Shown here piece by piece: positions 4,354 to 37,380 of a DNA stretch of 37,380 nucleotides. The notes beneath the pieces were generated by a model, which worked only from the letters and a program-made list of their open reading frames with translations, made no database searches and was not told the origin of the DNA. Origin of the DNA: Archangiaceae bacterium (GTDB lineage: Bacteria > Myxococcota > Myxococcia > Myxococcales > Myxococcaceae); NCBI GenBank assembly GCA_016879935.1, contig JAACJQ010000260.1, positions 1 through 37,380 on the forward strand. The letters run 5' to 3'. Position numbers and translations under genes: made by a program. Positions within the stretch are counted from its first letter, which is position 1; each line of letters begins with the position of its first letter.

Positions 4354-4380
4354 AGCGCCTGCGACGTATGCCCGGTGCGG

Positions 4381-5026
4381 CCCGTGCCTCGAGACCTGCG
4401 AGGTGTCGGGTCTTGTCTCGAACTCGCGCCTTCGCGACCCCGCCTGAGCCCGACGCACGCTGAGGGCGAAGTGGCGGCCCGTGCCTCGAGACCGGCGAGG
4501 TGTCGGGGTCTTGTCTCGAACTCGCGCCTTCGCGACCCCGCCTGAGCCGACGCACGCTGAGGGCGAAGTGGCGGACGGTGCCTGGAGACCGGCGAGGTGT
4601 CGGGGTCTTGTCTCGAACTCGCGCCTTCGCGACACCGCCTGAGCCCGACGCACGCTGAGGGCGAAGTGGCGGCCCGTGCCTCGAGACCGTTGAGGTGTCG
4701 GGTCTTTCTCGAACTTGCGCCTTCGCGACACCGCCTGCGCCGACGCACGCTGAGGGCGAAGTGGCGGACCGTGCGTCGAGACCGGCGCTTGTCTCGAACT
4801 CGCGCCTTCGGGACCGTGCCTCGAGACCGGCGAGGTGTCGGGTCTTGTCTCGAACTCGCGCCTTCTCGACACCGCCTGAGCCCGACGCACGCTGAGGGCG
4901 AAGTGGCGGCCCGTGCCTCGAGACCGGCGAGGTGTCGGGTCCTGGCTCGACCGTGCGGGTCGCCACACCGCCGTCCAGCGAAGCCGCTCGAGCGCTCGCT
5001 GCGACGCACGCCGAGGGCGAAGAAGC
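4381..5026. repeat. Tandem array of ~97-bp repeats, about seven units
   Basis: Unit starts read near 4381, 4478, 4575, 4673, 4768, 4813 and 4910, giving lengths 97, 97, 98, 95, 45, 97 and ~117 bp. The unit begins CCCGTGCCTCGAGACCGGCG, passes through TCTCGAACTCGCGCCTTCGC and ends ACGCTGAGGGCGAAGTGGCGG. The fifth copy is internally deleted to 45 bp and the seventh is degenerate with an insertion. Each unit carries TCGAGAC ... GTCTCGA (7-bp inverted repeat) and CTTCGC ... GCGAAG. Because 97 is not a multiple of three, the open frames crossing the array change frame from copy to copy and are not genes. A further degenerate copy seems to extend left into the end of the kinase gene (~4322-4380). 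It fills the whole 740-bp gap between the kinase and the metalloprotease. Confidence 0.9.
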
Positions 5027-5093: not shown

Positions 5094-6356
5094 TCAGCGA
5101 CGTCGAGTCATCAGCCACACCGCGAGCACGAGCATCGACGAGAGCTCGACGTGCGAGCAGCCGCAGCCCGTCTGCCGAAGCTGCTGCGGCCCGAGCAGCT
5201 CTGGCGCCGCGCCCGTGCCCCCACCTTGTGGCGCAGGAACGCCGGCGTCTTCCTCCACCCCCGCGTCGATGATGCCTGCGTCGACGGCGACGCCTGCATC
5301 GGGCTCGGGGGCTCCTGCGTCGGGTTGGGGAACGATGCAGCCCTGGCCCATCGCACGCGTATCGACGAAGCCGTGCTGATCGGTCGCCGCGGTGAACCAG
5401 GACTCGAAGCGGCGGCGCCAGGTGTCGACCTGGAGCAACGCCTCGGGCGTCGGCTGACCGCGGGTGACGTAGACGAAGCCCGTACGGAAGCACCGCTGCG
5501 TCGCGGGGAAGGCGGGGCTGCGCGCGCCCATCTGTCGAATCACGTCGGTGACGCTGACGCGGCGCTCACTGCCCATGATGGTGACGGGCGCCGCCGTCGG
5601 AGCCAACGGCCCGAGCGGGTCGTTCGAGCCCTGACCCCACACGAGCAACAGCGGCTGCACGTCGCCGGGCGGAATGAGCCCCATGAAGTACTGGTCCATC
5701 GAGTTGTACTTGCGCGCGCAGCCCTTCACTCGAAACACGTCGCCGCCGAGCGGGTCGATGCAGCTGCCGAACATCACCGAGCGGGAGTCGACGCGCACCT
5801 GGTAGTGCCGGTCGCCGCTGCGCAGGTCTTCCTGCTTGCCGAAGCCGGTGTCGTAGTCGGCGCCCACGAGCCAGAGATGGCCGAGCTCGTGACCAAGCAC
5901 CTCGAGGCCCGTCATGCCGAGGTTGCCCGAGCCGAGATCTCCCGCGAGCGCGTCGGGGTCGGCCGGCAATCGTCGCGCCGAGCCCATGAAGATGCAGCCC
6001 TTCAACTTCGCGCGACTCCCGAATGGAGCGCCGTCGTTGAGCAGCGGGTTCTGCCCGATGTTCTGCGCCGTGACGCGAGCCTGCTGAAAGAGCGGAACGT
6101 TCGACGGGCCGTTCACCTGCTCTGAGAGGAAGACGACGAGAAAGTCGTACTCGTCGGCGAGTGCCCCAAGGGCCGCGCGCGAGGCGTCCTGACAGGCGAG
6201 ACCTTGCGCAGGCGTCAGCCCCGGAAGCCCGAAGCCCATCACGCGCTGGTGGATGCTGCCCGTCGCGTCGGGCACCACGATGACGTCTCCCACCGTCGTC
6301 ACCTGCGCGTGCGCCAACGAGCTCAACAAGACGAGGAGGGCGAGGGGTCTGGTCAT
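5094..6356 (-). CDS. Secreted zinc metalloprotease-like protein with MYXO-CTERM-type tail
   Basis: 420 residues. Signal peptide at 1-17 (LALLVLLSSLAHA). HELGHLW at 156-162 fits the HExxH zinc motif, with Asp/His-rich sequence following (GADYDTGFG, GDRHYQV). Cys121, Cys199 and Cys213 suggest disulphides. A PDAG/DAG-rich linker occupies about 345-375. The C-terminus reads QTGCGCS, then a hydrophobic helix (SSMLVLAVWLM) and RRR, the three-part pattern of MYXO-CTERM, a myxobacterial sorting signal for envelope anchoring and processing at the Cys. Start supported by GGAG six bases upstream. The third zinc ligand is not assigned. Peptidase activity is inferred from HExxH only; substrate unknown. 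It is divergent from nothing; the 97-bp array lies just beyond its 3' end. Confidence 0.88.
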   Translation of the reverse strand: MTRPLALLVLLSSLAHAQVTTVGDVIVVPDATGSIHQRVMGFGLPGLTPAQGLACQDASRAALGALADEYDFLVVFLSEQVNGPSNVPLFQQARVTAQNIGQNPLLNDGAPFGSRAKLKGCIFMGSARRLPADPDALAGDLGSGNLGMTGLEVLGHELGHLWLVGADYDTGFGKQEDLRSGDRHYQVRVDSRSVMFGSCIDPLGGDVFRVKGCARKYNSMDQYFMGLIPPGDVQPLLLVWGQGSNDPLGPLAPTAAPVTIMGSERRVSVTDVIRQMGARSPAFPATQRCFRTGFVYVTRGQPTPEALLQVDTWRRRFESWFTAATDQHGFVDTRAMGQGCIVPQPDAGAPEPDAGVAVDAGIIDAGVEEDAGVPAPQGGGTGAAPELLGPQQLRQTGCGCSHVELSSMLVLAVWLMTRRR

Positions 6357-6451
6357 GGCGGCTCCGGCAGCGCCTCAAAACAAACCAGATGGAATGGAAC
6401 AACCCGTCGGGTCCCGGCGGTGTCACCCGCGGGTGTCACGTGGAGCTGCGG

Positions 6452-7072
6452 TCACCCGACGGCGTGGTTGTTTGCGGCGCACGACTGCGCACGCTCGATG
6501 GCCTTCTCGATCGGCTTCCAGTCGGCCTTCGGCTGCCACCGCTTGAGACACGACAGCAGCCGGTTCATGTGCCCGACGCGCCGGCCCGAATACATCGGGT
6601 GCTCGGAGGGGCAGGGGCCTTCGATCTTCATCGCCAGCACCGACTCCCGGTAGAGCGTAGCCGCTTCGTCGACGCGCCCTGCCTGCGCGAGGGCATAGCC
6701 ACGCAGACCGGGCGAGAGCGCGTTGCCGTACTCTTTGAACAGGGCCGCGATGACCTTCGCCTCTGCCGGCTCGGCCGGAGCGCAGTCACCCAGCCCACTC
6801 TCGGCTGCCATCAACGGGCCGTTCTCGCCCCACGGGCCGAGCTCGGTCTTCGCGCTGCCGATGGGCGCGAGCAGCTCGGTCTCGTGCAGCACCTCGGCAT
6901 ACCAGCGCACGCCCGAGATGGTCGTCGGGTCGGCCTTCGCCTTCTTGAGCGCGGCCAGAACGTCGGCAACCTGTCGCCGCTCCATGGCTGGGGGAGGTTC
7001 GGCACGGCTCGAGCGCACCAGCACCAGCAGCGAGAACACCGCGACGAGACCGGCGACGAGCGAGGCGCGCAT
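6452..7072 (-). CDS. Secreted helical protein, unknown function
   Basis: 206 residues with a signal peptide at 1-24 (LVAGLVAVFSLLVLVRSSRA) and a mature part made mostly of helices. The segment GLRGYALAQAGRVDEAATLYRES near 122-144 reads like a single TPR-type helix pair. Two cysteines at about 97 and 154 may be bonded. No enzyme motif is visible. The ATG has no Shine-Dalgarno, but TAGGCT sits 7 nt upstream, which fits a leaderless transcript. It is co-oriented with the metalloprotease gene (95-bp gap) and divergent from the PhzF-like gene. Confidence 0.78.
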   Translation of the reverse strand: MRASLVAGLVAVFSLLVLVRSSRAEPPPAMERRQVADVLAALKKAKADPTTISGVRWYAEVLHETELLAPIGSAKTELGPWGENGPLMAAESGLGDCAPAEPAEAKVIAALFKEYGNALSPGLRGYALAQAGRVDEAATLYRESVLAMKIEGPCPSEHPMYSGRRVGHMNRLLSCLKRWQPKADWKPIEKAIERAQSCAANNHAVG

Positions 7073-7079
7073 GACGCCG

Positions 7080-7085
7080 AGCCTA
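7080..7085 (-). promoter_or_regulatory. Candidate -10 element (TAGGCT) for the 6452-7072 gene, leaderless type
   Basis: TAGGCT on the minus strand ends 7 nt before the ATG at 7072. A weak TTCACC lies 19 bp further upstream. The same TAGGCT hexamer occurs 8 nt before the ATG at 23662. Transcription would begin at or next to the start codon. Confidence 0.4.
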
Positions 7086-7141
7086 CTTCGCTGGCCTGGT
7101 GGACGGTGAACGCTGGCCCGACGTCGCGCAGAACTTGTCGC

Positions 7142-7190
7142 GCATGGACCAGCTGAATTGTCGAAACTGGAGCTTTCCGCTGGTCCATGC
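7142..7190. promoter_or_regulatory. 12-bp perfect inverted repeat, candidate operator between divergent genes
   Basis: GCATGGACCAGC (7142-7153) and GCTGGTCCATGC (7179-7190) are exact reverse complements separated by 25 bp. The site lies between the start of the 6452-7072 gene and the chosen start of the PhzF-like gene at 7210. It may bind a dimeric regulator, or form an RNA stem in the leader of the downstream gene. Its position argues against the longer PhzF frame starting at 7099. Confidence 0.5.
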
Positions 7191-7209
7191 TCTTGGCACC
7201 GTCGACGGC

Positions 7210-7983
7210 ATGAACGTCTCTCTCTTCTCCGTCTTCGGTGGCGAGGGCGCCGCCGGAAGCGCCACCGGCGTCGTCGTGCTCGCAGACCAACCTGACCCGG
7301 GCGCTGCCCAGGCGTTCGCCACCAGGCTCGGCGTCTCAGACACGGTGTTCCTCTGGCCGCACGGGCGTCGTTGGAACGCCCGGTTCTTCTCCACGCTCGA
7401 AGAGCTCGCGGTCTGTTACCAGGCGCTGCTCGCGGCTGCGGAGGTGATCGGGGCTCCTCGAAGCGAGTTCATCTGCGGTCATGACGGGTCGGCCCGCCGG
7501 CGCGTCCTGCTCGTCGCCCGCGAGGCGCACCGTTGGTGGGTTCGTACGCCCGCCTCAGCCGTGGAGCGGCGCGGGTCAGTGCTCACGCCGTTCGGGCTCG
7601 GCGAGGTCATCGACACCGGGCGGGCTCGTGTCTACCTGCGAGTCGAGTCGGTTGGTTTCGAGACGCTCCAGTGGTCTGCAACGGAAGCGCTCGAGTGGCT
7701 GCGGGCGCATTCGCTGAGTGGCCTGTGCCTCGTCGATGCAGCCACGCCGACTCGTCCTCGACTCCGCGTGTTCACCACTTCACTCGGAGGCGCTGAAGAC
7801 GTCGCCACGGGCGGTGCGGTGGTGGCGCTCCCCGACTTCCTCGGCGTCTCGACGCGGCTCCAGGTCGAGCAGGGGCTCGGCGCGCCTTCACGCCGCGGCA
7901 GGCTCGTCGTTCAGGGCAGTGGGCCGATGCGGTCGGTCAGCGGTGACGTGCTGCCGATGCTGGAAGAATGCTCTTCGGCTTGA
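7210..7983 (+). CDS. Divergent PhzF-family protein (isomerase-like)
   Basis: 257 residues. The N-terminus FSVFGGEGAAGSATGVVVL and RLGVSDTVFLWP correspond to the PhzF signatures for FGGNPAAVVL and nLSETaFV, and GGAEDVATGGAVVALPDFL with QGLGAPSRRGRLVV matches the second half (EDPATGsA ... QG...GR). PhzF proteins are diaminopimelate-epimerase folds; PhzF itself isomerises dihydro-hydroxyanthranilate in phenazine synthesis, but most family members have unknown substrates, and no phenazine genes are present here. Start at 7210 chosen because family proteins begin just before this motif and the 12-bp inverted repeat lies upstream; a frame also runs from 7099. Oddity: the catalytic Glu of SET is Asp44 here, and the NP of the GGNP motif is absent, so activity is uncertain. 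Confidence 0.8.
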   Translation: MNVSLFSVFGGEGAAGSATGVVVLADQPDPGAAQAFATRLGVSDTVFLWPHGRRWNARFFSTLEELAVCYQALLAAAEVIGAPRSEFICGHDGSARRRVLLVAREAHRWWVRTPASAVERRGSVLTPFGLGEVIDTGRARVYLRVESVGFETLQWSATEALEWLRAHSLSGLCLVDAATPTRPRLRVFTTSLGGAEDVATGGAVVALPDFLGVSTRLQVEQGLGAPSRRGRLVVQGSGPMRSVSGDVLPMLEECSSA

Positions 7984-8112
7984 TGCGGTCGAACACAACG
8001 CCGCTTCGACGGCCGCGCCTCCACCACGCGAGCCAGCATGAGCGTCTTCGTCTCGAGTCGAGTGAAAGCCGCTCCACGCTGCCGCGACGCTTCGTACGGC
8101 GGCGTTCATGTT

Positions 8113-8862
8113 TCACCCCGGCAGTCGGCCAGCGCGTACGGCGAGCGGCCACGAAACTCCTTTCAGCGCCGCCCCATCACCCCAGCGCGCCGCGAGCGCG
8201 TGGGTGAACTCGTCGAAGCGAGCCTGCTGCCCCGCCTTGCGAAGCGCCGCCACGGCCGACCAGGTGCCGACGTAGGCCACGACCTGCTCGAGACGCCACG
8301 AGGCGTGCATCGTCACGGGTGGAAGAACGACCGGCTCAAGCGGAAAAGCGAGCTCGGCGTAGCCCGTGTCGACATGGCGCCGCTCGGCGGGCCAGTAGCC
8401 GTCGAGCGTCTCGAAGGTGAAGCGGTTGATGACGTCGTCGAGCTCGCGTTCGATGAACATCACGCCGTACGTGACGAGAGCGACGAGCGCGTGCGGCCGG
8501 CCGACGCGGCGACACTCCGCAACGAAGGCAGGCATGTCGAACCAATGGGCGGCCTGTGCCACCACGATGGCGTCGGCGCAGCACGCGTCGAGCCCACTGC
8601 GCTCGGCGGGAGCACAGGTGTAGGTCACGCCATGCGCCGGCATCGCGTGTTTGAGCTGTTCGGCGCTCGCGTCGGTCGCGACCACCTGCTGGAACCGCCG
8701 CGGCAGCAACGTCGACAATTGGCCCGAGCCGCAGCCCACGTCCCAGACGAGCGTGGTGGCGGGGCTCGCGTCGGCCAGCCGGTCGACGAGCGCGTCGGGC
8801 CAGCTTGGGCGATGTGCCGCGTACGCCGCCGCGTGCCCGGAGAAGTGGTCTTTGAAGGTCAC
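8113..8862 (-). CDS. Class I SAM-dependent methyltransferase
   Basis: 249 residues, starting at a GTG. FKDHFSGHAAAYAAHRPSWP at the N-terminus, motif I VWDVGCGSGQLS (~39-50), the acidic motif II VVATDAS (~60-66) and APAERSGLDACCADAIVVAQAAHWFD (motifs III/IV) are typical of the small-molecule methyltransferases related to trans-aconitate methyltransferase. It should transfer a methyl group from S-adenosylmethionine to a small acid or similar acceptor in the cytosol; the acceptor cannot be read from the sequence. The gene follows the hybrid kinase on the same strand after a 37-bp gap and may be its operon partner. There is no clear Shine-Dalgarno. Confidence 0.88.
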   Translation of the reverse strand: MTFKDHFSGHAAAYAAHRPSWPDALVDRLADASPATTLVWDVGCGSGQLSTLLPRRFQQVVATDASAEQLKHAMPAHGVTYTCAPAERSGLDACCADAIVVAQAAHWFDMPAFVAECRRVGRPHALVALVTYGVMFIERELDDVINRFTFETLDGYWPAERRHVDTGYAELAFPLEPVVLPPVTMHASWRLEQVVAYVGTWSAVAALRKAGQQARFDEFTHALAARWGDGAALKGVSWPLAVRAGRLPG

Positions 8863-30665: not shown

Positions 30666-31799
30666 TCAGGCGAGGGCGGAGGCCTTCGCGAGCGCACGAT
30701 GCACCGCCTCGAGCGCCTTGCGGGCCTCGAGCAATTCAGCGCGCTCCTTCGTCAGGTCGGACACCTGCCGGGCCAGCGTGTCGCGCTCGCTCTTGAGCGC
30801 ATCGGCCGACCGGCGCAGGCCACCCATCGCCTCGTGCGCCTCTTCGAGCTCACTCGCCAGCCGCTCTTCTTCCTGCAGCGACGCCTCGAGCTCCTGGTCC
30901 TTCGCGGTCAGCGACTCACGCAGCTCGTGCTTCTCGAGCTCACCGGCCTCGATGGCCTGACGCGACTCCTGCAGCGCGAGCAGCGCTTCGTTGCGCTCAC
31001 CTTCGAGCGACGCGAGCTCCTTCTCGAGATCGGCGAGCAGCGTGACGCGGCCCTCCATCTCGGCCGACAGGCGGCGCGCTTCGTCCATGCGCAGGCGGGC
31101 CTCTTCGGTGGCGCGCTCGGCCTGACGGCGGGCCGCCTCGAGGTCTTGCGACAGCGCGAGGTTCATCGCGCGCGTCTTCGCCAGCTCGCTCTGCAGCGCG
31201 GCGATGCGCTCGACGGCCAGCACGCCGGCCTCGGCGACGGTCTCGGGCAGCGGCTCGGGGCGCGGGTTCTCACGCACGGCCTTGAGGCGCTCGCGCAGCT
31301 TCTCGCGGCGATCGGTCGCGTCGGGCATCGGCGCCTCGAGCGGAGCCGTCTGCACCTCGCGCACCTCGGCGGGCGCTTCGACGGCGGCCTTCACCGTGTG
31401 GGTGACGACGACGGGCTTCGGCTGCGCCATGACGACCTCCGGGGCCTGCACCGTTTCGACGGCAGCCTTCGCGTGCGTGACGGCTGCCTGCGGGGCCTCG
31501 ACCTGCTGCTCCACCACCGCCACGTGCGCGACGGGCGCTGGTGCCTCGGTCTGCAGGGCCGACGACAACACCTCGGCGGCGGTCGGCTTGAACGCGCGCG
31601 CGGTGAGCTTCGCCTTGAGGGCCTGCGAGAGATCGACCGGCTCCTCACGCGAAGGAATCACCGGCTCCTGCGCGACGGCCTGCGCGAGCGACTCCACCGT
31701 CTCTTGCGAGATCGAGGGAGCCTCTGTCGTGCCGAGCATGGCGCCCAGCCTCAGCTTCGGACGGGCCCGCGAGACGTTCGCGTCGAATGCCTTCTTCAT
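30666..31799 (-). CDS. pomX: PomX-like cell-division scaffold and PomZ-activating protein
   Basis: 377 residues (M. xanthus PomX is about 404). Start at 31799 after GGAGGA, giving MKKAFDANVSRARPKLRLGA, the short basic N-terminal peptide that in M. xanthus activates the PomZ ATPase; two basic residues there (K13 and R15 in that species) are R13 and K15 here. Residues 24-190 are Ala/Val/Pro-rich and low in structure; 195-375 are a long coiled coil (ERIAALQSELAKTRAMNLAL ... LTKERAELLEARKALEAVH), which forms the PomX filament. PomX is the scaffold of the nucleoid-associated PomXYZ cluster that marks mid-cell and recruits FtsZ. It is the third gene of the cluster, 25 bp after pomZ. Identification rests on peptide, architecture and neighbours. 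Confidence 0.9.
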   Translation of the reverse strand: MKKAFDANVSRARPKLRLGAMLGTTEAPSISQETVESLAQAVAQEPVIPSREEPVDLSQALKAKLTARAFKPTAAEVLSSALQTEAPAPVAHVAVVEQQVEAPQAAVTHAKAAVETVQAPEVVMAQPKPVVVTHTVKAAVEAPAEVREVQTAPLEAPMPDATDRREKLRERLKAVRENPRPEPLPETVAEAGVLAVERIAALQSELAKTRAMNLALSQDLEAARRQAERATEEARLRMDEARRLSAEMEGRVTLLADLEKELASLEGERNEALLALQESRQAIEAGELEKHELRESLTAKDQELEASLQEEERLASELEEAHEAMGGLRRSADALKSERDTLARQVSDLTKERAELLEARKALEAVHRALAKASALA

Positions 31800-31824
31800 G
31801 CGTGTGTCCTCCAGAGAATCGTCT

Positions 31825-32781
31825 TCACGCCGACTTCGCTTCCACCGGCGGCTCCACCTTGGCGCTCTTCTCGAGTCGCCCAATCACTGCGTCGATGAGC
31901 GCCTGCACGTCGCTGGCGCCCTTCGAGTCACGGTCGAACGCGAAGATCGGCATGCCCTCACTCGAGGCCTGCGCGAACCGCGTGCACTGCCGCACCACCT
32001 GCGGCATCAGGTATTCGGGGTAGTGCGTCTTGAGCGCCTCGAGCGCTTCCTTCGCGAGCTTGAAGGTCGCGTTGAACGCGTTCACCACGATGAAGACGTG
32101 GTCGAGCACGTGGCCGAGATCTTCTTCGAGGCTCTGCACCGTCTCGAACAACAGCTTGAGGCCGTGGAACGAGAGGAAGTCGGCGAGCACCGGCACGATG
32201 AGATCGTCGGCGGCCATCAGCGCGTTCAGGTTCAGCAGGCCGAACGAGGGCGGCGCGTCGAAGATGATGAAGTCGTAGTGCGCCTCGACCTCTTTGAGCG
32301 CGTTCTTCAGCTTGAACTCGCGCCCGGCCATCGGCATCAGCGCGAGGTCGACCGTCGACATCGAGAGGTTCGAAGGAATGAACTCGAGGTTCGGCAGCTG
32401 CGACTTCTGAATCGCCTGCGTGATGGGCGCCTTCTTCACCAGCACGTTGAGCAGCGTGTGCTGAAAGTCTTCGCCTTCGAAGCCGAGGCACTTGGTGGCG
32501 TGGCCCTGGCTGTCGAGGTCGACGAGCAGCACGCCGTAGCCCATCTCGGCGAGCCTCCACGCGTACGAGGTCGACAGCGACGTCTTGCCGGTGCCGCCCT
32601 TGAAGTTGAGGAAGAGCTGCTTTCGCGTGCCGACCGAGGGCGGGTAGAGGTTGAGCTTCGCGCGCAGATCCCACACGTCTTCGGGCGAGAAGACGTCTTT
32701 CTCGAGCGACGCCTTGAGGGCCTTCGGCGTGATGTGCAGCAGCTCGGCGGCCTGCTTCGGAGTGTAGGAAGGCGTTTCCAT
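31825..32781 (-). CDS. pomZ: PomZ-like ParA/MinD-family ATPase
   Basis: 318 residues. Start METPSYTPKQ at 32781 is preferred over 32820: counting from it gives KGGTGKTS with Gly62 and Lys66, and VDLDSQGHATKC with Asp90, the same numbers as the published M. xanthus PomZ mutants (G62, K66, D90). Deviant Walker A is at 61-67, the Walker-B-like region IIFDAPPSFGLL at 172-183, and basic residues including Arg264/Arg268 may contact DNA (K268 in M. xanthus). The first 55 residues (TPKQAAELLHITPKALKAS) resemble a small helix-turn-helix. ATP-bound PomZ dimers bind DNA nonspecifically and link the PomX/PomY cluster to the nucleoid. Lies between pomY (13-bp gap) and pomX. Confidence 0.95.
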   Translation of the reverse strand: METPSYTPKQAAELLHITPKALKASLEKDVFSPEDVWDLRAKLNLYPPSVGTRKQLFLNFKGGTGKTSLSTSYAWRLAEMGYGVLLVDLDSQGHATKCLGFEGEDFQHTLLNVLVKKAPITQAIQKSQLPNLEFIPSNLSMSTVDLALMPMAGREFKLKNALKEVEAHYDFIIFDAPPSFGLLNLNALMAADDLIVPVLADFLSFHGLKLLFETVQSLEEDLGHVLDHVFIVVNAFNATFKLAKEALEALKTHYPEYLMPQVVRQCTRFAQASSEGMPIFAFDRDSKGASDVQALIDAVIGRLEKSAKVEPPVEAKSA

Positions 32782-32794
32782 GCGTGAGGGTTCC

Positions 32795-34588
32795 TCAGGC
32801 GACGAAGTACTTGTGGCCACGGCGAACGACCTGGCCTTGTTCCATGAGCGCCGCGCACGCTGCGCGGACCGACTCGAGTGACGTGTTGAGAGAGGTCGCC
32901 AGCACGTCGGCGGGCTGACCGCGAATCGCCGCGCGCAGCTCGACGAGCACGGCCTTCATGACGCTGGCGTCGACCGCGGGTGGGGTGTGCTCGAGCACGG
33001 CCACGGCGACGCGCGACGGAGCGGCTCCCGTGTGAAGCGCCGACTCGTGGTGCACGGCCGGCGTCGCGCGGTGCGAGAGCACGACCTGCTCGACGACGGA
33101 GGGCGCAGCGACGCTCACGGCGGTGGCGACGGAAGCGCCAACCTCGTGCTGTGCGGTCCGATGGGCGCTGAGATTCGCGCCGGTCGTGCTGCGCGTGAGA
33201 GGGCCGCCCACGACGGCGTCGTGGTGAGCGCTACGAGCGGAAACCTCGTGTCGCACGGTCGTGTGGTCCGCAGAGGAGGCGCCAACCTCGTTCCGTGCAA
33301 CGGCAGCGGCCTGGACGGGTGCACGCTGCTCCGAGGCCTTCGGCAGCGCGGCGACGACCTTCGCCTTCACGGGGTTCGACGGCACCTGCGCGAGCCGACG
33401 CACTTCGCGGCGGCGCTGGGCCTCGTCGAGCTCGACGAGCTGGCTCACGTCCTGTCCGAGCTGCCGTGAGAGGGCCTGACTCGCCGAGCGGCGAACCCGC
33501 ACCTCCGGGTCTCGCATGGCCTGCATCAGCCACGGGCGCGCCGACTCCATGCCGCTGGCGCCGAGCACCAGCGCCGCGAGCGAGCGCACGTCGGGGTTCT
33601 CGTCACGAATCGCCGTCTCACCGAGCTCGAGCGCCGACGGCCCGCGCAGCCCGAGCGCCAGCAGCGACGCGCGACGACGCACGGCGGGGTCTGGATCTTT
33701 CACGGCAGCCGCGAGGTGCGGGCCGGCCTGCGCCGGGTCGAGCTTGAGCAACGCCTTCAGCGCCGCGATGCGCACCTCGGCCGCCGGCGAGCTCAGCTGC
33801 GGCACGATGACGGGAATCGCTTCGACCTTCGCGAGCGTCGACAGCGCGTTGAGCAGCGCGACCTTCACCGGCGCATCGGTCTCGGCATGCAGCGCCGTCG
33901 CGAGCGCGGGCGCAGCAGCCGGGTGTGCCAGCGCGGTCAGTCGCTCCGCAGCGCGCGCACGGGCCGACGGGTCTGGTGCAGAGAGCTCGCGCACCGAAAA
34001 GCCGAACAGCGCCTCTTCCGAGCGGCCGGGGAAAGGGAAGGCGCGCTCGAGCGAGGCGAGCTCGTCTTTCGACACCGTGAGGCGCCCCTGCGACTTCAGG
34101 CTCTCGGCTTCTTTCGTGATGAACGACGGCTCGGGTTCGACCGCAGCGACGGGCGCGGACTCGACCGGAGCATTCACCAGCACCGGTGTGCCAGCCGCTT
34201 CGTCACGCTCACGTCGCAGCAGCACTTCACTGCGCAGCTCCGAGATGAACGAGGCGAGGTTGAACGGGTCGTGGCCGTCGGCGTGGTTCAGCTTCGAGGC
34301 CTCGAGGATCTTGCCCAGCAGCTCGGCCCGTTCACGTCGCAGCGCCTCGGCGAGGTTCGCGCTCTCTTCACGCTCGGCGTGGGCGCGCGTCGCCCGCACC
34401 TCGAGCTCGGCCACCACGCGGCGCAGATCGATCTCCCGCTGCGAGGCCTGCGCAAGCTCGGCACGCAGCCGCTCCCGCTCGGCACACGCCGTCGACAAGT
34501 CGTTCGTCAGCTGCGACGCGCGAGCTTCGAAGTAGACGATTTTTTCGAGCGCGCTTTTCAGCAACGCGTCGGGGCGCTCCTGGCTCAC
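32795..34588 (-). CDS. pomY: PomY-like HEAT-repeat protein of the PomXYZ cluster
   Basis: 597 residues, GTG start (AAAGG upstream). N-terminal coiled coil at 10-100 (ERERLRAELAQASQREIDLR), HEAT repeats at about 200-380 (ARARAAERLTALAH, VKVALLNALSTLAK, VRIAALKALLKLD, VRRRASLLALGLRG, VRRSASQALSRQL), a low-complexity Ala/Val/His-rich region at 410-540, and a small helical C-terminal domain at 544-597 that looks like a winged helix (MKAVLVELRAAIRGQPADVL ... QGQVVRRGHKYFV). The order coiled coil, HEAT, low-complexity matches M. xanthus PomY (682 residues), which forms condensates on PomX and stimulates PomZ ATPase. First gene of the pomY-pomZ-pomX unit. The winged-helix reading is inference. Confidence 0.88.
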   Translation of the reverse strand: MSQERPDALLKSALEKIVYFEARASQLTNDLSTACAERERLRAELAQASQREIDLRRVVAELEVRATRAHAEREESANLAEALRRERAELLGKILEASKLNHADGHDPFNLASFISELRSEVLLRRERDEAAGTPVLVNAPVESAPVAAVEPEPSFITKEAESLKSQGRLTVSKDELASLERAFPFPGRSEEALFGFSVRELSAPDPSARARAAERLTALAHPAAAPALATALHAETDAPVKVALLNALSTLAKVEAIPVIVPQLSSPAAEVRIAALKALLKLDPAQAGPHLAAAVKDPDPAVRRRASLLALGLRGPSALELGETAIRDENPDVRSLAALVLGASGMESARPWLMQAMRDPEVRVRRSASQALSRQLGQDVSQLVELDEAQRRREVRRLAQVPSNPVKAKVVAALPKASEQRAPVQAAAVARNEVGASSADHTTVRHEVSARSAHHDAVVGGPLTRSTTGANLSAHRTAQHEVGASVATAVSVAAPSVVEQVVLSHRATPAVHHESALHTGAAPSRVAVAVLEHTPPAVDASVMKAVLVELRAAIRGQPADVLATSLNTSLESVRAACAALMEQGQVVRRGHKYFVA

Positions 34589-37028: not shown

Positions 37029-37057
37029 AGGTCGGCGGACACGGCGTGGCGTTCAAG

Positions 37058-37380
37058 GCGAACGCAACTCCGACCACTGCCTCGGTGGTTGAACTCGTTG
37101 TCGGCGAACGCAACTCCGACCGGCTCAGTGGTTGAACTCGTCTCGGCGAACGCAACTCCGACCACCGGCTCGGTGGTTGAACTCGTTCTCGGCGAACGCG
37201 ACTCCGACCCGCACCTCGGAGGTTGAACTCGTTCTCGGCGAACGCAACTCCGAATACCGGCTCGGTGGTTGAACTCGTTCTCGGCGAACGCAACTCCGAC
37301 CACCGGCTCGGTGGTTGAACTCGTCTCGGCGAACGCAACTCCGACTGCCGGCTCGGTGGTTGAACTCGTTCTCGGCGAGC
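37058..37380. repeat. Tandem array of ~46-bp hairpin-forming repeats, continuing past the window
   Basis: Repeat starts (GCGAACGCAACTCCGA core, or near variants) at 37058, 37104, 37146, 37192, 37238, 37284, 37329 and 37374: spacings 46, 42, 46, 46, 46, 45 and 45 bp. A unit reads GCGAACGCAACTCCGACCAC, then CGGCTCGGTGGT, then TGAACTCGTTCTCG. The centre ACCACCG-GCT-CGGTGGT is a 7-bp hairpin, and CGTTC-TCGGC-GAACG across each junction is a 5-bp hairpin. The centre varies a little between copies (e.g. CCGCACCTCGGAGG at 37208-37221), sometimes keeping partial pairing. It lies 29 bp after the tnaA stop. Confidence 0.9.

Follow-up and report, generated by a model that had tools for sequence, protein, structure and literature searches.

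Does the three-gene block at positions 30666-34588 of this stretch of 37,380 nucleotides (the window, meaning the whole stretch) encode the PomX, PomY, and PomZ proteins that position cell division in Myxococcus xanthus, and how much of the interaction between the ATPase and its two partners is retained? With a probability of about 0.96, we read the block as a genuine and intact pomY-pomZ-pomX division-positioning operon of the Myxococcaceae type, orthologous to the known one. As such, it is one more ordinary orthologue of a described system and is expected for its host organism.

Results

Gene order and gene starts

All three genes lie intact and tightly packed on the minus strand of the window (Table 1), at the coordinates where the preliminary description had placed a complete cluster. 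The intergenic gaps of 13 nt (pomY-pomZ) and 25 nt (pomZ-pomX) are consistent with a single operon, and gene order and content match those of M. xanthus, where MXAN_0634, MXAN_0635, and MXAN_0636 encode PomY, PomZ, and PomX, respectively (PMC7993993). The longest mechanically listed ORFs for pomZ (GTG 32820) and pomX (TTG 31883) run into the preceding gene; the ATG starts, that of pomZ at 32781 being M14 of the longer ORF, agree with those of orthologues, and a GGAGG stands 5' of the pomX ATG. The source genome is a draft of 445 contigs. In tblastn searches with all three proteins, the three genes turned up adjacent to one another in dozens of relatives, and this recovery, together with the enrichment of the PomX peptide 3' of pomZ described below, argues that the cluster does not reflect chance. 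Elsewhere in the window, we observed two tandem arrays, one of about 4 copies of a 97-bp unit overlapping a longer period (4377-4929) and one of 7.3 copies of a 46-bp unit reaching up to the window end (37050-37378).

Table 1. Features of the Pom locus in window coordinates.
Feature	Position	Strand	Description
pomY	34588-32795	minus	GTG start at 34588, stop at 32795; 597 aa
pomZ	32781-31825	minus	ATG start; 318 aa; ParA/MinD-type ATPase; Pfam AAA_31 E 2.6e-48
pomX	31799-30666	minus	ATG start, stop at 30666; 377 aa; peptide, disordered Ala/Pro-rich linker, and C-terminal coiled coil
PomY N-terminal long helix, residues 6-102	34283..34573	minus	AlphaFold2, pLDDT above 90 over most
PomY HEAT-repeat array, about residues 189-414	33347..34024	minus	Pfam HEAT_2 E 6.3e-21; AlphaFold2 helices 189-414
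PomY candidate motif RVAVAVLE, residues 526-533	32990..33013	minus	Six residues ahead of winged-helix domain
PomY winged-helix domain (gD), residues 540-597 + stop	32795..32971	minus	AlphaFold2 pLDDT about 96
PomZ Walker A, residues 62-66 (G62 ... K66)	32584..32598	minus	
PomZ D90	32512..32514	minus	
PomX activating peptide, residues 1-22	31734..31799	minus	MKKAFDANVSRARPKLRLGAML; R13 and K15; published AAP peptide

As a reference we used the region L120, which we treat as M. xanthus or nearly so, judging from its peptide, protein lengths, α5 position, and PomZ K268. Its PomX (404 aa) has an N terminus identical to the M. xanthus peptide derived from published primers, its PomY (682 aa) carries VQAALVAM at 584-591, the published positions of helix α5, and its PomZ has 319 aa. 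Over aligned residues, identity to L120 is 71.4% for PomZ, 55.9% for PomX, and 50.6% for PomY, and the window PomX and PomY can be aligned with their orthologues over their full length. The preliminary description had given the M. xanthus PomX and PomY as about 404 and 682 residues against 377 and 597 here; these lengths were borne out, and the differences fall mostly in disordered linkers, namely, the Ala/Pro-rich linker of PomX and the linkers of PomY. The alignments that it had proposed likewise matched all three window proteins to their counterparts, with the peptide and Walker residues aligned.

PomZ retains both partner pockets and is distinct from Soj

Counting from the ATG at 32781, PomZ has the G62, K66, and D90 that had been noted from the sequence, and we take the first two to be the positions of published M. 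xanthus mutants. For the third, a D90A allele is named in PMC7993993. A published model (PMC13170346) places the PomX peptide in a 13-residue pocket of PomZ and PomY α5 in a second pocket of 8 residues, counting A147. In the window PomZ, 12 of the 13 peptide contacts are identical (F202, F205, E219, V229, L242, E248, A249, Y254, E256, Q271, S274, and E275), with Y for F at residue 257, and the α5 pocket is kept in all 8 positions (L139, L146, A147, F180, L182, L185, L210, and D221; LLAFLLLD). In three ParA paralogues from this genome, the residues of these pockets are not conserved. At residue 268, the DNA-binding K268 of M. xanthus is R here, so the charge is retained.

Alternatively, the ATPase could be a ParA of chromosome segregation (Soj) or gliding, with unrelated coiled-coil and HEAT proteins as its neighbors. 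The window ATPase does belong to the ParA superfamily, sharing its fold, and ParA/Soj proteins are its nearest solved relatives by sequence; moreover, coiled-coil and HEAT matches are weak evidence by themselves. Nonetheless, ParABS-type ParAs are only ≈31-34% identical to PomZ and lack its pocket residues, and the same genome encodes separate Soj-type ParAs, ≈31-33% identical to the window PomZ. In our tree, PomZ sequences form a 100/99-supported clade from which the Soj-type ParAs, including the host genome's own, are excluded, the Soj-type rows being long branches whose internal order is unsure. Next to the window PomZ stand PomX and PomY, which match their counterparts along their full length, and no ParB is present at the locus. 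Paralogue identities, tree, and neighbor alignments thus refute a Soj or gliding identity, to which we assign almost no probability, and we retain the assignment as PomZ.

PomX carries the activating peptide

At its N terminus, the window PomX has the peptide, basic at residues 13 and 15, followed by a disordered linker and a C-terminal coiled coil, the last assigned by alignment to M. xanthus-like PomX. Its N terminus is MKKAFDANVSRARPKLRLGA, and read from the ATG at 31799 the sequence is MKKAFDANVSRARPKLRLGAMLG, with R/K at residues 13/15, whereas M. xanthus has K/R in MKKAFEQNVSRAKPRLRLGALTG, as taken from mutagenesis primers (PMC7993993). The short basic PomZ-activating peptide and its swapped pair had both been seen beforehand and are present as described. 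Across 72 loci, the peptide pattern occurs 3' of pomZ in 61, the misses being partly contig ends or ORF-start artifacts, versus 4 of ≈4,750 other ORFs; of those 4, two are true PomX-like genes.

The preliminary description had proposed that only charge matters at the basic pair. This fits the Myxococcota sequences examined, in which residue 13 is always K or R and residue 15 always R or K, in the combinations K/R, R/K, and R/R, but it overstates the case for the full peptide. F5 and P14 do not vary across phyla, partly by construction since they are fixed letters of the search pattern, and N/S8 and V/I/L9 are almost so; outside Myxococcota, basic residues at 13 and 15 are not obligatory.

Published work proposes that the PomX peptide acts in the manner of the MinE peptide, although the partners are unrelated in sequence; neither MinC nor MinE had a match in the host genome. 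In an outlying Myxococcota genome (G014), locus L114 encodes an 835-aa PomX-like protein (5957-8464) that starts MKSGFEGALPRRKPRTRLG, its gene adjoining those for PomZ and a PomY-like HEAT protein.

PomY keeps its domains but not α5

AlphaFold2 predicts for the window PomY the published order of long helix, HEAT array, disordered linker (residues 415-535), and winged helix. The 97-residue N-terminal helix is the counterpart of the published coiled-coil helix of residues 5-106, the HEAT array, published as seven repeats, was recognized as a whole, and gD has three helices followed by two strands, as in the published domain. We also observed degenerate internal repeats (HEVGAS/HEVSAR) in the linker, at about 33000-33270 of the window. 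Relatives have linker repeats of their own, SVAQQ in L002 and an ≈25-aa unit in L004, and such repeats account for linker lengths differing among relatives.

The sole published candidate for a PomZ-binding element in M. xanthus PomY is the modelled α5 (VQAALVAM), with a logo built from nine orthologues predicted to have it (PMC13170346). Because α5 is found in some, not all, published orthologues, it is not a defining feature of the system. We found α5 in Corallococcus (L016 and L056) and Myxococcus-like regions (L118-L124), but no VQAALVAM-like element in the linker of the window PomY, which instead has RVAVAVLE ahead of the winged-helix domain. The ATPase-activating role of PomY is therefore less certain here than that of PomX. 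The α5 pocket of PomZ shows little or no change in the α5-less lineages examined, and conservation of this pocket alone is thus no proof of α5 binding.

Might PomX and PomZ work as in M. xanthus while PomY has lost direct ATPase activation and serves only as an FtsZ-recruiting condensate? The missing α5 would fit such a loss, but the near-identity of the α5 pocket in lineages lacking the helix, the conservation of the winged-helix domain, which is required for activity, and the conservation of a different short motif nearby all speak against it, and we consider it unlikely, at roughly one chance in four. We infer instead that PomY of the window lineage contacts PomZ without α5, possibly through an RVAVAVLE-type motif near the winged-helix domain.

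Among 47 PomY linkers, the pattern [RK][VAT]AV[AVL]{1,3}[EDI] occurs in 18 and α5 in 10, never together; put differently, the motif is present in 18 of the 37 α5-less PomYs and in none of the 10 that have α5. Since the pattern was composed after some sequences had been seen, many carriers are related to one another, and a few rows represent the same genome twice, the count of 18 of 47 is not a clean probability. The motif could instead reflect composition bias, or an extra strand pairing with the winged-helix domain rather than a PomZ-binding element, and we give this a chance somewhat short of even. In favor of this reading, Ala and Val abound in the linker, 2-11 residues separate the motif from the winged-helix domain, many carriers are closely related, and AlphaFold2 gives the motif no structure. 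Against these points, shuffled linkers yielded a mean of 0.23 carriers and a maximum of 2 in 500 shuffles compared with 18 in the real set, and the Anaeromyxobacter-type L035 and L036 have the motif as well, a recurrence that is its best independent support.

PomZ-type cassettes within and beyond Myxococcota

In the window's order, a PomZ profile matched 125 of 136 genomes (E ≤ 1e-60), so PomXYZ is standard for the group; elsewhere in the phylum, 2 of 43 genomes had clear matches (G005 and G014) and one a borderline match (G163). Published surveys of PomXYZ cover completely sequenced myxobacteria only, and we found no description of the system outside myxobacteria in the open-access papers searched. 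The profile also matched 24 of 395 genomes of Desulfobacterota (the phylum of G179; Syntrophaceae among them) and 4 of 64 of Latescibacterota (the phylum of G181), scoring 444-545 bits versus about 160-185 for Soj-type paralogues, which were scored in five such genomes. ATPases of both phyla share with PomZ its clade, an R-[KR]-Q-[LI]-FLNFKGGTGK block, and an N-terminal region that we take to be MerR-like. Following these ATPases, in both phyla, are proteins starting F-[DET]-x-[NS]-V-x-x-x-x-P, the core of the PomX peptide (e.g., MKDGFDKSVAEKMPKIQ, MSDEFTNNVAQKFPNT, and TADGFDTNVAEKMPK). This likeness was first spotted in L039-L054 and held in most of L100-L117, which were fetched later and played no role in spotting it.

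In Desulfobacterota, the gene order is HEAT-PomZ-X (L039-L051, L100-L112, and L117), with a PomZ-clade ATPase of 43-51% identity and a downstream X protein bearing F-x-x-[NS]-V-x-x-x-x-P. The upstream protein of the loci examined has HEAT-like sequence, Pfam-confirmed in five, but its 220-260 aa leave no room for the long N-terminal helix, the linker, and the winged helix that PomY has. For one group (group 2), the X protein is modelled with a short helix at 5-11, disorder, and one long helix at 153-351, which would resemble the peptide helix, linker, and long helix of PomX; one group differs in having two consecutive peptide-bearing proteins. Group 2 cassettes also include an extra ≈80-aa coiled-coil protein and are flanked by a PriA-like gene on one side and, on the other, by a response-regulator/kinase pair (genes identified by eye). 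From ATPase clade, peptide, and gene order, the Desulfobacterota cassette is likely related to the PomZ-X pair.

Two further candidate links were rejected. Direct profile-profile comparison of the PomX coiled-coil body with Desulfobacterota X proteins gave E values of 0.003 to 0.15, worse than the control of PomX against the PomY coiled coil (E 0.00016); a link reached indirectly, through L028-type X proteins (E 7e-6), is no more than suggestive. As for PomZ and MinC excluding each other, MinC matches were absent from all 24 PomZ-positive Desulfobacterota, with about 1.8 expected (29 of 395 genomes above cut-off), an absence that means little because MinC is rare in the phylum anyway.

In the Latescibacterota loci (L053, L054, L115, and L116), the peptide-bearing partners match HTH_36 and DnaA_N, as checked in L053, L054, and L116. 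In L116, the ATPase gene has one such gene on either side, and an HTH/S24-peptidase regulator lies upstream in L053.

Peptide residue 13, K or R in Myxococcota, is K in Latescibacterota and M or F in Desulfobacterota. We observed that a basic residue here (window 31761-31763) accompanies an acidic PomZ residue 256 (window 32014-32016) in Myxococcota and Latescibacterota, and that both are mostly lost in Desulfobacterota. This covariation, with few independent changes behind it, hints that the two residues may be in direct contact.

Discussion

The window encodes three intact orthologues in the known order, with the catalytic residues, activating peptide, both PomZ pockets, and PomY domains in place, and it is very likely, by orthology, that they act in division positioning. 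Their biochemistry and cellular role would follow from orthology with M. xanthus: ATP-bound PomZ dimers would bind the nucleoid, and a PomX filament scaffold would enrich a PomY condensate. The N-terminal peptide of PomX and the C-terminal region of PomY would then stimulate the PomZ ATPase, moving the cluster to midcell, where PomY would recruit and bundle FtsZ.

On a broader view, we regard the odds as even that PomXYZ is a branch of an older ParA class, composed of a HEAT protein, a PomZ-type ATPase, and a peptide-bearing partner, that also occurs in Desulfobacterota and, in a version whose partner is of a DNA-binding type, in Latescibacterota; that its ancestral motif was F5-x-x-[NS]8-V9-x4-P14, with residues 13 and 15 basic only in particular lineages; and that PomY of the window lineage touches PomZ through RVAVxVxE rather than α5.

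The value of the locus is comparative. According to the 2026 literature, how PomY activates PomZ is still unsettled (PMC13170346), and a PomY that lacks the element modelled to bind PomZ can serve to test it. The PomX-type peptides of two other phyla offer natural variation at the presumed interface, at peptide residues 13 and 15 and PomZ residues 248 and 256, and suggest that the peptide-ATPase pair is older than its use in myxobacterial division.
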